NCBI GenBank assembly: GCA_022843305.1
Contig: JALHNX010000022.1
Coordinates: 1 to 35,492 of the forward strand
Direction of reading: 5' to 3'
Source: Pyrinomonadaceae bacterium
Lineage (GTDB): Bacteria; Acidobacteriota; Blastocatellia; Pyrinomonadales; Pyrinomonadaceae
Length of the DNA stretch: 35,492 bases
This document shows, piece after piece, positions 5,665 to 10,447 of the stretch. The notes beneath the pieces are model-generated. The model was given only the letters and a program-made list of their open reading frames with translations. It did not search any database and was not told the DNA's origin. Positions within the stretch are counted from its first letter, which is position 1. Every line of letters begins with the position of its first letter. A program made the translations under genes and the position numbers.

Positions 5665-5937
5665 TCATTGTTTCGATAATTTGCCGTTTTTAATCACGAC
5701 GCGTTCCGAACCCGAAATTTTGATTTTGCCGATGCCGACAACTTCGATTTCGCAATTGCCGCAAATGCTCAAGACGCTCGAATTGCCGTCAATCCACGTG
5801 TTGCGCGTCGTCGAGCTTTCGTGAACTTTGACTTCATAGCGTTTGCCGTCTTCGTTCCGCAGATCACCCGCCGTCACGCTTGCCGCCAAAAGCAGGAAAA
5901 CAATCAGGAATTTAGTTATTAAACCGATTTTTTTCAT
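5665..5937 (-). CDS. small secreted protein, unknown function
   Basis: This 90-residue protein has a signal peptide (residues 1 to about 23, MKKIG...LLLAASVTAG). The mature part is about 65 residues and rich in short beta-type stretches (RYEVKVHES, IEVVGIGKIKI, ERVVIKNGKL). It holds one CGNC pair that could form a disulphide or bind a metal. No family is recognised. The AAGGAG ribosome site and start are convincing. It lies directly upstream of the GNAT gene. Its 5' leader is homologous to that of the next gene upstream (6128-6637), so the two are probably controlled alike even though their proteins are unrelated. Confidence 0.75.
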   Translation of the reverse strand: MKKIGLITKFLIVFLLLAASVTAGDLRNEDGKRYEVKVHESSTTRNTWIDGNSSVLSICGNCEIEVVGIGKIKISGSERVVIKNGKLSKQ

Positions 5938-6022
5938 TATAATTACTCCTTCATATATAAATTCCGAGAAGCGTTTTTGCGCCCTCGACTAAAAAGACGA
6001 AAACGGCTGACGAAACAGGACA
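5938..6022 (-). promoter_or_regulatory. conserved leader, copy A
   Basis: Read on the minus strand, this leader begins TGTCCTGTTT and continues through a hairpin (CGAG..GCG-CAAAAA-CGC..CTCG), AATTTATAT, an AAGGAG ribosome site and TAATTATA before ATG. The same order and spacing occur at 6638-6719. Homologous blocks are present along its whole length, so this is either a duplicated promoter or a shared cis-regulatory RNA. Confidence 0.6.
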
Positions 6023-6040
6023 TTGAAAAAGATTTAAAAA

Positions 6041-6120
6041 AGTTCAGAGTCCAAACTTCAGCTTGCCTTTTTCACTTGCGACATATCACGGAAGACACGC
6101 TAAAGCGTGAACTCTGAACT
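6041..6120. repeat. palindrome, AGAGTCC..CTNNAG family, copy 1
   Basis: The left arm at 6041-6061 (AGTTCAGAGTCCAAACTTCAG) and right arm at 6100-6120 (ending GTGAACTCTGAACT) are imperfect complements of 21 bp. CACGCTAAAGCGTG forms an inner hairpin at the right. A second member of the family, with the same phrases, is at 23911-23978. It lies just beyond the stop codon of the peptidoglycan-binding-like gene and may act as its terminator. Confidence 0.7.
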
Positions 6121-6127
6121 CTTTAAC

Positions 6128-6637
6128 TCATTCAAGCCCGAGATTCAGCGTGCCGACGACGCGGCGGACGGAAGATTCGAGCGACAGACCGAGCGTGCCG
6201 ACCGGCATATCGTCAAGAGCCGCGTGAAGCTGCGGAAATTTGCGGCAAAGGTCTTCAAACTGATTTCCCTCGCCGCCGCTTAAAAGTCGCGCTTCCATAA
6301 CGTGCGCGTTAAGACATAAAATCGTCCACCAACCGCTTTTGCCGAAGGCTTTTTCGCCGACGGCGCGGCTAATCACGCCGTCAACCGAGACGCTGAGTTT
6401 GTCTTTTTTCCGCAAATACCGTTGATATTCCTTGATTAATATCGCCGTATTTTTGTCCATCGCACCCGTCGGTTCGGGAAACTTGAACTTGCGAAAAAAA
6501 GGACGTTCTGCCAAAGCATATTTCAGCATCGCCTGCACGACCATCACATCATCTTTCAGATTCACGCCGTTTTCGCCGACCGAAGCCGTCAGATTGATAT
6601 TTGCAATATCACCAAAAAAATTTTCTATCTGTGCCAT
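6128..6637 (-). CDS. peptidoglycan-binding-domain-like protein
   Basis: The protein is 169 residues when started at MAQIENFF, chosen because a GAGGA ribosome site lies 8 nt upstream; a longer reading adds 11 unlikely residues. The middle (about 25-100) resembles the PGBD three-helix fold: DVMVVQAMLKYAL, then GAMDKNTAILIKEYQRYL and VDGVISRAV. These domains bind peptidoglycan or serve as adaptors in phage-tail-like machines. There is no signal peptide, so it is either cytoplasmic or exported by another route. The C-terminal 60 residues are unrecognised. It is preceded by the same kind of leader as the small secreted protein downstream. Function is inferred only from the fold-like repeat. Confidence 0.65.
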   Translation of the reverse strand: MAQIENFFGDIANINLTASVGENGVNLKDDVMVVQAMLKYALAERPFFRKFKFPEPTGAMDKNTAILIKEYQRYLRKKDKLSVSVDGVISRAVGEKAFGKSGWWTILCLNAHVMEARLLSGGEGNQFEDLCRKFPQLHAALDDMPVGTLGLSLESSVRRVVGTLNLGLE

Positions 6638-6719
6638 ATAATTATTCCTCAAAATATAAATTAAGAGCATTTTTGCAACGCTCCACTTTAAAAACGGATT
6701 TGCCGCGCAAAACAGGACA
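6638..6719 (-). promoter_or_regulatory. conserved leader, copy B
   Basis: This is homologous to 5938-6022. On the minus strand it runs TGTCCTGTTT, a GAGC-loop-GCTC hairpin containing GCAAAAATGC, AATTTATAT, a GAGGA ribosome site and AATTATATG. It lies directly before the peptidoglycan-binding-like gene. Compared with copy A, the loop core CAAAAA and both ends are conserved while the hairpin stem bases differ, which suggests a conserved RNA structure. Confidence 0.6.
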
Positions 6720-6823: not shown

Positions 6824-7414
6824 ATGAATCAACCGGCGACGCAGAAGGAAATAACGCGCTTGCTTCTGGCTTGGGGCGCGGGCGACAAAGCGGCTTTGGA
6901 CGAGCTGATGCCGCTCGTCTATGCCGAACTTCGCAAACTGGCGCGAAATTATATGCGTCAGCAGCCCGCCGACCATACTTTGCAGACGACCGCACTCGTC
7001 AACGAAGCTTACTTGCGTTTGATCGATTCGAGCCGCGTCAACTGGCAGAACCGGACGCATTTTTTTGCGATCTCGGCGCAGTTGATGCGCCGCATTCTGG
7101 TTGATTTCGCCCGCAAACGCAGCAGTCTGAAACGCGGCGGCGAAGTGCAGATGGTCGAACTCGACGAAGCGCTCATTGTTCCTTTAGAGCAAAAGACGGA
7201 TCTGGTCGCGCTCGACGATGCCCTGAAAATTCTTGCCGAAATGAATCCGCGTCAGGGTCAGGTTGTCGAATTGCGCTATTTCGGCGGTTTGAGCGAAGAG
7301 GAAATCGCCGAGCATCTCGAAATTTCGGTGCGCACCGTCCGCCGCGACTGGAGCATCGCACGGGCGTGGCTGTTTAGAAAACTGTCAGAACCGCCTGCGG
7401 TAGCGGGCGGGTAA
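6824..7414 (+). CDS. ECF-type RNA polymerase sigma factor
   Basis: This 196-residue sigma factor has region 2 at about 10-98 (LMPLVYAELRKLARNYMR, TALVNEAYLRL, FFAISAQLMRRILVDFAR) and region 4 at about 130-188 (MNPRQGQVVELRYFGGLSEEEIAEHLEISVRTVRRDW). The pattern matches the acidobacterial/planctomycete ECF group often encoded before large serine/threonine kinases. A kinase follows here, so the two probably form one signalling unit with phosphorylation in place of an anti-sigma factor. The start has an AGGAG ribosome site. The last residues, EPPAVAGG, and the stop codon come from a repeat (7384-7419) and are not expected in the family. Target promoters are unknown. Confidence 0.9.
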   Translation: MNQPATQKEITRLLLAWGAGDKAALDELMPLVYAELRKLARNYMRQQPADHTLQTTALVNEAYLRLIDSSRVNWQNRTHFFAISAQLMRRILVDFARKRSSLKRGGEVQMVELDEALIVPLEQKTDLVALDDALKILAEMNPRQGQVVELRYFGGLSEEEIAEHLEISVRTVRRDWSIARAWLFRKLSEPPAVAGG

Positions 7415-7583
7415 ATTTTTCGGTATGTGGAATGAACACAGCGTCGGATTGGCGATCGATTATGTATTTAACGGGCAAGGTGATGAATTGCCTGATTTTG
7501 ACTGAGTAAAATTTTACCCGCCCGCTACCGCAGGCGGTTCTGACTTGAGCGAAACCTGCCCGCTACCGCAGGCGGTTCTGACC
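7384..7583. repeat. inverted and direct copies of a CCGCCTGCGG repeat
   Basis: Three copies of a unit of about 24-36 bp are present. Copy 1 at 7384-7419 is inverted, reading GTCAGAACCGCCTGCGGTAG onward. Copies 2 (about 7508-7544) and 3 (7556-7583) are in the opposite orientation, ending CAGGCGGTTCTGAC. Copies 1 and 2 bound a unique segment of about 90 bp like the terminal repeats of a MITE. That segment has an open frame at 7425-7505 (26 residues, beginning MWNEHSVG) with no ribosome site. Copy 1 encodes the tail of the sigma factor. Copy 3 ends 5 bp before the kinase ATG. Confidence 0.85.
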
Positions 7584-7588
7584 GGGAT

Positions 7589-10447
7589 ATGTCGCCTGAG
7601 CGTTGGGAACAAATTACAGAGATTTATCATTCTGCGCTGGAATTAGAGCTTGGCGAGCGATTAGCTTTTCTCGACGCGGCTTGCGCGGACGACGATTCTC
7701 TGCGCCGCGAGGTCGAATCTTTACTCAAAGCCGATTCTGAAGCGGGCGATTTTATCGCGCATCCGGCGTTTCACGACGCGGCTTCGCTGCTTACCGTTAA
7801 GACGGACGTGCCTTTGGCGGTCGGGCAAAATCTCGGTCATTACAAAATAATTTCGCGGCTCGGCGCGGGCGGCATGGGCGAGGTTTATCTTGCCAAAGAT
7901 TCAAAATTAAATCGGGAAGTCGCGATTAAAATTCTGCCCGCTTCGTTTGCCGAAAATCCGAATTACCTGCGGCGTTTTCAGACCGAAGCCGAAGCCGCCG
8001 CGACGCTCAATCATCCGAACGTCGCCGTTATCTATTCGGTCGAAAACACGGACGGGCGCTCGTTTATCACGATGGAATACGTTGCGGGCAAAACGCTCGA
8101 CGCGGCGATTCCGCCGCGCGGTTTCGATGTCAAAAACTTTCTCGATCTTTTTATTCCGCTGGCGGACGCGCTCGCGCAGGCGCACGAAAAAGGTGTCATT
8201 CACCGCGACATTAAACCCGGAAATATTATCATCACGCCCGAAGGCACACCGAAAATTCTCGATTTCGGTCTCGCACAGATTGACCGCCCGAAAGCGAATG
8301 AAGACGAATCAACGCTAAAAATCACGCAGACCGGACAGATCTTCGGCACACCATCCTATATGTCGCCCGAACAAGCCGAAGGCAAACAGATTGACCACCG
8401 GAGCGACATTTTCAGCTTCGGCGTCGTAATGTATGAAGCGATCACCGGAACGCGCCCGTTCAAGGGCGATTCTTACGCTTCGATCATCAGCAATCTGCTC
8501 AAAACCGACCCGATCTCGGTTTCGCAGCTCAAATCGGAAACGCCGTATTTGCTGGCGCGTCTGATCAGCCGCTGTCTGAGCAAATCGCGCGGCGTGCGCT
8601 TTCAGTCAATGCGCGAAGTCCGCGCCATTCTTGAAGAAACCAGGGCGGCAATCGAAGCCGGAGTTTCGATGGATAGTGCTTCGAACCCGTTTTTGCTGAA
8701 ACAAAAAACGGTTTCCCGCCGGTGGCTGATCGCGCCCGCCGTTTTGGTGATCGCGCTGTCGGTTTCGGCATATTTTTATTTTCAAACCGCGCCGTCCAAA
8801 CCGCCGCTCAATTTTGCGAATATGACTTTGCGCAAGCTCTCGCAAAGCGGCATGACCAGCTACGCGCACATCACGCCGGACGGAAAATCAATCGTCTATA
8901 TTATGCTCGACAAAGACGAAGGACGCTCGCTCTGGATTCGGCGCATCGAAGACCGCAATGCACTTCAGCTGATCTCGAAAGGACTGCGGCAATTTTGGGG
9001 CGGCTTGGGAATTTCGCCCGACGGAAACCATATCTTTTACATTCTCGCCGACGAAAACGCGCGTTTCGGAACACTCTACCGGATTTCGAGTCTAGGCGGA
9101 AGCCCGCGCAAATTGATCGAAAACGTCAACGATGTCGGCTCGGTTTCGCCCGACGGGCAGCGCATCGTTTTTGCCCGCTACACCGAAAAAATGCAGATTC
9201 TGTCGGCAAATGCGGCGGACGGCGGCGACGAGCGCGTTATTCATACGGGCGCGCCGGACGAACTTTTCCGCGACCCGCAGTTTTCAGCCGACGGCAAAAG
9301 CGTCTTTTTCAGCAAGCGGAAATCCGTCAGCGGTAAGACTTCATGGTCGCTCGTCGAAGTTCCCGTCGAGGGCGGTGCCGAGGGGACAATTCTCGAAACC
9401 AGCGGAAAAAGAATCGGCGAACTGGCGGTTTTGAAGAACGGCAAGGGAATACTTATCAACCGCACCGACGATGTTTCCAATCTCCAGCAGATTTATTACG
9501 TTTCGCTGCCCGACGGCAAAGAACAGCGCATCACCAACGATCTGAACTCTTATCACGGTGTCAACGTCAGCAGCGACGGAAACACGATTGCGGCAACGCA
9601 GAATCTGACCGTCAGAGATATTTGGACGGGCAAGGACGCAGAAAGTCTGCGGCGGGTAACGACCGAATCGAATGTTTATTCAAGGGCGGCGTTCACACCC
9701 GACGGGCGGATAGTTTATGACGCGCTCGATAATAATCGTCCGAACATCTGGATAATCAATCAGGACGGAACAAACGCGCAACAATTGACACCCAACGATT
9801 CGTTTAATGCCGAGCCGCAGGTTTCTGCGGACGGACGCTTTATCGTCTTTTCGTCCGACCGCACGGGCGAAAACAAGATTTGGCGAATGAACACGGACGG
9901 CAGCAATCCGACGCTTCTCACAAACGTCAGCGGACCGGCTTACGCGCCCGTTATCTCGCCCGATTCAAGCACCGTCTGGTTTCAGTGGAATCGGAACAAC
10001 AAACTCGTGTTAGGTAAAATCCCGCTCGGCGGCGGCGAAGCGGTCGAACAGCAGCCGAACTTCGGCGACAATCTCTGGGCGGTTTCGCCCGACGGTAAAC
10101 AATTGGCGCAGGTCTTTTTCGACGGGCAAAGCAATCAATTTAAGACGCGCGTCCGTCCTTTGAACGCGGAAGAACCGTCAAAGATTTATAATATTCCGGC
10201 AAGTTTTATCCTGAATTGGACAGCCGACGGTAAAAATCTGCTTTACCGCAGTATTGACACGACCCCCGAAATGTTTTCGATTCTCTGGATGCAATCGGTC
10301 GAAGGCGGCGAACCGAAACAATTCTTGTCGGTCAAACCCGACCGCATCACGAACATCGCGCAATCAGCCGACGGCAAACAAATCTTAATTATCCGCAGTA
10401 AATCTTTGTCCGATGCCGTGATGCTCAGCAAAATCTCAAACGAATAA
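7589..10447 (+). CDS. membrane-anchored serine/threonine protein kinase with C-terminal TolB/PD40 beta-propeller
   Basis: The protein has 952 residues. An N-terminal segment (1-75) has the MSPERWEQIT..Y..AL pattern common in acidobacterial kinases. A Hanks-type kinase domain follows at about 85-350: G-loop LGAGGMGEVY, Lys114 in VAIK, HRDIKPGN (205-212), DFG (225-227) and MSPEQ (258-262). One transmembrane helix lies at about 379-398. The extracytoplasmic part (410-952) has many 'SPDG', 'SADG' and 'IWRMNTDGS' motifs of TolB-like propeller blades. The kinase domain is therefore cytoplasmic and the propeller probably senses an envelope ligand. It follows the ECF sigma gene and probably controls it. 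No clear ribosome site precedes the ATG, because a repeat copy ends 5 bp upstream. Confidence 0.92.
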   Translation: MSPERWEQITEIYHSALELELGERLAFLDAACADDDSLRREVESLLKADSEAGDFIAHPAFHDAASLLTVKTDVPLAVGQNLGHYKIISRLGAGGMGEVYLAKDSKLNREVAIKILPASFAENPNYLRRFQTEAEAAATLNHPNVAVIYSVENTDGRSFITMEYVAGKTLDAAIPPRGFDVKNFLDLFIPLADALAQAHEKGVIHRDIKPGNIIITPEGTPKILDFGLAQIDRPKANEDESTLKITQTGQIFGTPSYMSPEQAEGKQIDHRSDIFSFGVVMYEAITGTRPFKGDSYASIISNLLKTDPISVSQLKSETPYLLARLISRCLSKSRGVRFQSMREVRAILEETRAAIEAGVSMDSASNPFLLKQKTVSRRWLIAPAVLVIALSVSAYFYFQTAPSKPPLNFANMTLRKLSQSGMTSYAHITPDGKSIVYIMLDKDEGRSLWIRRIEDRNALQLISKGLRQFWGGLGISPDGNHIFYILADENARFGTLYRISSLGGSPRKLIENVNDVGSVSPDGQRIVFARYTEKMQILSANAADGGDERVIHTGAPDELFRDPQFSADGKSVFFSKRKSVSGKTSWSLVEVPVEGGAEGTILETSGKRIGELAVLKNGKGILINRTDDVSNLQQIYYVSLPDGKEQRITNDLNSYHGVNVSSDGNTIAATQNLTVRDIWTGKDAESLRRVTTESNVYSRAAFTPDGRIVYDALDNNRPNIWIINQDGTNAQQLTPNDSFNAEPQVSADGRFIVFSSDRTGENKIWRMNTDGSNPTLLTNVSGPAYAPVISPDSSTVWFQWNRNNKLVLGKIPLGGGEAVEQQPNFGDNLWAVSPDGKQLAQVFFDGQSNQFKTRVRPLNAEEPSKIYNIPASFILNWTADGKNLLYRSIDTTPEMFSILWMQSVEGGEPKQFLSVKPDRITNIAQSADGKQILIIRSKSLSDAVMLSKISNE

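Follow-up and report, generated by a model that had tools for sequence, protein, structure and literature searches.

The window, i.e. the whole 35,492-nt stretch of DNA that was analysed (contig JALHNX010000022.1 of the Pyrinomonadaceae bacterium assembly GCA_022843305.1), carries two small genes, P1 and P2, which are preceded by similar leaders, and next to them the genes of a sigma factor and a kinase (Table 1). P1 and the GNAT acetyltransferase gene that follows it are probably transcribed as one unit. For P2, a first reading made from the sequence only had proposed a PGBD-like protein, a resemblance seen by eye: no match was obtained in Pfam or NCBIfam, and the predicted structure (model pLDDT 81) had no fold match in the PDB. 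In the sister genome of the same genus (G001, an acidobacterial MAG), a P1 paralogue of 70% identity (L018, G001:C63:12316-12567) was found without a TGTCCT leader.

Table 1. Genes and predicted leader elements at the P1–P2 locus, in window positions.
Feature	Position	Strand	Profile match
GNAT acetyltransferase gene, 21 nt downstream of P1	5002..5643	-	
P1 gene, 90-aa predicted secreted protein, without known family	5665..5937	-	
P1 ribosome-binding site GGAG	5946..5949	-	
Leader 1 stem-loop, 9 bp, one bulged U, loop CAAAAA, about 6 nt after −10	5964..5988	-	
Leader 1 −10 element CGTCTT, 17 nt after TGTCCT	5994..5999	-	
Leader 1 (P1) extended −35 element TGTCCTGTTT	6013..6022	-	
P2 gene, 169-aa protein, PGBD-like by eye only	6128..6637	-	
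P2 ribosome-binding site GAGGA	6646..6650	-	
Leader 2 stem-loop, GAGCG..TGCTC core	6664..6684	-	
Leader 2 −10 element CGTTTT, 17 nt after TGTCCT	6691..6696	-	
Leader 2 (P2) extended −35 element TGTCCTGTTT	6710..6719	-	
ECF sigma factor gene, divergent to leader 2	6824..7414	+	PF07638 5e-59, TIGR02999 9e-69
Transmembrane Ser/Thr kinase gene, with PD40 beta-propeller	7589..10447	+	Pkinase 1e-44

Region 2.2 of the sigma factor reads LQTTALVNEAY, with QTTA at residues 54–57 replacing the acidic DAED-type motif, and the kinase has a transmembrane helix (residues 380–398) as well as the HRD, DFG and GAGGMG motifs. The hallmark of the ECF43 group is QTTA in place of the acidic motif together with an adjoining Hanks-type kinase, and phosphorylation of a QTTA threonine activates the sigma factor (PMC13147305, PMC8999054). 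With its PF07638/TIGR02999 kind, its QTTA in region 2.2 and the adjoining Hanks-type kinase gene, the window sigma factor appears to be of the ECF43 type, as assigned by motif and context and not by ECF group models. In total, 13 matches to it, itself included, were found in this genome. A REP-like palindromic repeat (CCGCCTGCGGTAGCGGGCGG) is present in three copies, one direct and two inverted, between the sigma factor and kinase genes (window 7390-7412 and 7520-7590), and the stop region of the sigma factor gene (PPAVAGG) falls inside one of the copies.

The shared leader of P1 and P2

Leader 1 (P1, 6022→5938) and leader 2 (P2, 6719→6638) align locally with a score of 40, which was reached by none of 5000 dinucleotide shuffles (mean 14.4, maximum 33), and the P1 and P2 orthologues in G001 keep the leader, its spacing and the hairpin, thus bearing out the shared leader first noticed by eye. 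When 1830 pairs of 85-nt leaders were compared, the highest score outside orthologues and the regulon described below was 34, and the non-orthologous pairs that came next (32 and 27) were members of that same regulon. In G001, a PF02574 homocysteine S-methyltransferase gene (L055:15578-16531, minus strand), absent from the window, separates P2 from P1, and the P1 leader is retained.

All four founding leaders, i.e. those of the window and of G001, have the same layout: TGTCCTGTTT, CGTYTT at 17 nt past TGTCCT, a stem-loop, an A/T-rich stretch, the ribosome-binding site (RBS) and the start codon. The stem-loop, which has an A-rich loop, follows the −10 box after a gap of 5–7 nt and so begins about 6–8 nt past it, a position consistent with the predicted 5′ end of the mRNA. 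No sigma70-type promoter was found at the leaders; the TGTC-type −35 and the CGTC-type −10, which precede targets near the sigma factor gene and are spaced as in ECF promoters, are those of an ECF-type promoter.

A model built from the sequence of the full leader returned only the four founding sites strongly in 60 relatives, and therefore the 85-nt leader in its entirety is confined to P1, P2 and their orthologues. Two of the weak matches, G000:C144 (G000 being the window's own genome) and G019:C51, do carry the promoter. Most of the weak matches (G025, G002) were to TTTCGTGTATTTCGTGG-type phrases or to RBS stretches rich in A/T, and were rejected as instances of this promoter. Repeated phrases similar to TTTCGTGTATTTCGTGG occur just upstream of genes in the acidobacteria G025 and G041 (L051, L165), and may represent another promoter class or a repeat family.

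The absence of other strong copies, the distance of 700 nt between the leaders and their likeness beyond promoter and hairpin (AATTTATAT, ATAATTATA) are what would be expected if a leader with an ordinary promoter, and no regulon, had merely been copied between neighbouring genes in the ancestor of the genus. Such a local duplication is the probable source of the extra similarity of the P1 and P2 leaders. As the whole explanation it is improbable, since in other genera the promoter and 5′ hairpin recur in front of unrelated genes, repeatedly next to an ECF43 locus, which a duplication does not account for.

Recurrence beside ECF43-type sigma factor genes

With a pattern of TGTC-N19-CGTYT followed by an RBS and ATG, five sites were found in the window's own genome, three in G001 and six in G019, with no reversed-control match in these genomes. 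The stricter pattern, with a TGTCCT promoter, RBS and ATG, gave 15 sites in nine of the 119 genomes of the family set, versus one match of the reversed control. These were distributed over the genera g1 (G000, G001) and g17 (G019, G062, G063, G064), and three g9 genomes contributed one site each, of which that in G101 looks like a chance match. Thus, of the further copies that the sequence-only reading had anticipated in the genome or in relatives, close ones of the full leader were not encountered, and it is the layout of promoter plus hairpin that recurs.

The genes behind the sites are diverse. In G063, P2, a SAM methyltransferase gene and an OsmC-type gene form a tandem array in which every gene has a separate TGTCCT-N17-CGTCTT and hairpin, and the same arrangement is seen for P2, methyltransferase and OsmC-type genes in G019, with the variants TGTCCG/TGTCCC. 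In G064, the OsmC-type gene is directly divergent from the sigma factor gene, which is likewise followed by a kinase gene. An AurF-like gene with a site adjoins a second ECF sigma factor gene with QTTA in G019 (C51), and further targets encode an alpha/beta hydrolase, an FGE-like protein and, in the window's own genome (G000:C144), a TPR protein; the names OsmC and FGE were assigned by eye. Altogether, sites adjoin an ECF43-type sigma factor gene in G000, G019, G063 and G064, and a truncated ECF gene start in G001, and the target sets are swapped across the loci (P2-P1, P2-MTase-OsmC, OsmC2-P2-MTase, AurF-like). A common role in a secreted or tail-like structure, as had been suggested from P1 and P2, is not borne out by this list: P1 is predicted to be secreted, but among the other targets are methyltransferase, OsmC, hydrolase, AurF-like and FGE-like proteins.

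Positions that were not part of the search were also conserved in the resulting 19 leaders, which are partly orthologous and hence not all independent: T8 in 14, T9 and T22 in 16 each, and G37, located eight nt past the −10 box, in 17. In the sigma factor tree, the proteins of G000, G011, G019, G063 and G064 group together (93/77), and all five genomes carry promoter sites.

The bare motif with free spacing was not enriched in the genome: among the matches listed, 12 of 100 were at the right spacing versus about 9 expected, and the nine that were checked at the right spacing fall within open reading frames. The specificity of the promoter motif appears to emerge only with gene context. No such site was found in the flanks of the closest sigma factor orthologues outside the family (G049, G041, G038, G057), nor, outside the family clade, next to the genes of some 30 further PF07638 sigma factor relatives whose flanks were inspected. 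The promoter was also absent from the SAM methyltransferase and TPR orthologues in site-free genomes, and the third site of the window's own genome (C144, TPR protein) was not conserved in orthologues. In G011 (L127:2001-2091, minus strand), a YCII/DGPF-like gene is preceded by TGTCCA-N17-CGTTTA and, immediately behind it, a very strong hairpin; this may be a promoter used by a different ECF group.

On account of the repeated linkage and the co-occurrence, the promoter is proposed to be read by the neighbouring sigma factor. A real promoter that is read by a different ECF sigma factor, e.g. an ECF41- or ECF42-like one, is an unlikely reading of the same sites, to which the bipartite layout lends itself, as the ECF41 promoter mapped experimentally is TGTCACA-n16-CGTC and ECF41 promoters thus have the same TGTC...CGTC boxes and spacing, with targets adjoining the sigma factor gene (PMC3426412). 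No ECF gene was present in the sequence inspected around the sites on C144 and C33, and G011 has its sigma factor gene (C84) and its site (C1) on separate contigs. However, the −35 is not the same (TGTCCTG versus TGTCACA, i.e. continuing with CTGTTT instead of ACA), the PF07638/TIGR02999 sigma factor of the window lacks the extension at the C-terminus that is described for ECF41, the sites of several genomes cluster at ECF43 loci whose target genes differ, and the site-bearing genomes of the family carry this clade of sigma factors. A dedicated promoter of a regulon, one of the two suggestions made at the outset for the leader, is therefore well supported in silico by the ECF-type −35 and −10 boxes, their recurrence on other genes and their linkage to an ECF43 sigma factor and kinase.

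The hairpin behind the promoter

The P1 orthologues, two sequences in all, keep 9 of 9 stem pairs through one double-sided and three single-sided changes, which is suggestive of a conserved structure. The hairpins of leader 1 and leader 2 differ in stem length and register. The window hairpins fold as had been proposed, but their arms are not related by simple base-for-base covariation.

Folding was scored over the 36 nt that follow the −10 box, for the 19 leaders and for 191 other leaders from the genomes analysed. Mean fold z was -1.79 versus -0.28 (Mann-Whitney p=1.4e-5, which is optimistic, as the leaders are partly orthologous), and z was -1.4 or lower in 13 of the 19 leaders (68%) versus 18% of the 191 controls, or in 9 of 15 when the four founding leaders were left out. 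With a first, small control set the stability of the hairpin had not been unusual, a result that was reversed by the larger, better-matched set and the 19 leaders. The G011 MTase, G019 AurF and G019 hydrolase leaders folded no better than shuffled sequence over the scored 36 nt; the hydrolase leader has a strong fold over its full length. Several g17 hairpins have A-rich loops, e.g. GGCG-A8-CGCC and AGGC-A8-GCCT.

In the initial reading, a regulatory RNA had been the other suggestion. What stands of it is a 5′-proximal hairpin that is commoner than in other leaders; a riboswitch-like RNA is not supported. A ligand-, protein- or attenuation-based switch acting in cis on P1 and P2 has a small chance of being the right explanation: the stem with its A-rich loop is conserved in position in several genera, and the leader 2 hairpin scored as terminator-like, yet the arm sequence and stem length vary among members, a proper U-tract is lacking, the window leaders show no evident alternative structure in which the arms of the hairpin and the RBS would be sequestered together, and no Rfam family was matched in the leaders (a sub-threshold match to a miRNA family lay outside of them). 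A terminator or attenuator was rejected because of its weak tail and its position right at the predicted transcript start. The inverted repeat could instead act as DNA, as an operator for a repressor or activator, and a location just downstream of a promoter is common for operators. This is very unlikely, as an operator would conserve its arms, and here arm sequence varies widely with complementarity retained.

A predicted ECF43 regulon with hairpin-headed mRNAs

Taken together, the most probable interpretation, to which we give a probability of about 0.75, is a small regulon in which a kinase-activated ECF43 sigma factor reads TGTCCT(GTTT)-N17-CGTYTT and the resulting mRNAs carry at their start a hairpin that probably stabilises them. 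The sigma factor encoded at 6824-7414 would be inactive until the membrane kinase (7589-10447), on a signal, phosphorylates a Thr of QTTA, and would then recognise TGTCCT(GTTT) as the −35 and CGTYTT, 17 nt on, as the −10. Transcription would start about 6–8 nt past the −10 box, and therefore the hairpin would come first in the mRNA; a start site as is typical of ECF promoters would place the 5′ end of the mRNA at the hairpin foot. In the window, P2 and P1, the latter with the GNAT gene, would come under control of the sigma factor, and in the relatives the module of promoter and hairpin would control different genes next to the ECF43 locus, plus a small number at other places.

Behind the hairpin, the RBS would lie open in an A/U-rich stretch, and the hairpin may protect the 5′ end from 5′-end-dependent decay and leave the RBS free. 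This role, guessed from position, is the weakest step and is put forward tentatively. Stem-loops of the ompA type at the 5′ terminus stabilise bacterial mRNAs, and like them the hairpin has a short stem, lies at the predicted 5′ end or close to it, and is succeeded by an RBS that is open; unlike them, it recurs over a whole predicted sigma factor regulon, its stabilising effect being a proposal. Less likely than not is the idea that the sigma-specific promoters of a kinase-controlled ECF43 regulon and their 5′-terminal hairpins form one fixed, transferable cassette that sets initiation and mRNA fate together, with the initial transcribed sequence partly conserved (G37, GAGGC-like left arm).

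Among characterised systems, EcfK/PknS of Xanthomonas citri and EcfP/PknT of Vibrio parahaemolyticus likewise combine QTTA in region 2.2 with a kinase next door (PMC13147305, PMC8999054). The window system differs from both in being acidobacterial, in the PD40 propeller of its kinase, in a phosphorylation that is proposed here from sequence, and in its predicted targets, which are small secreted or PGBD-like proteins and enzymes, not T6SS or polymyxin resistance. No described target promoter for ECF43 was found in our literature search.

Acidobacteria are rich in ECF sigma factors of this kind. For one of these factors, the present analysis offers a concrete pair of sigma factor and promoter with a short list of targets, and the prediction that sigma factor plus kinase would switch on P1 and P2. 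It also raises the question of why the messages of one sigma factor regulon should share a 5′ hairpin.
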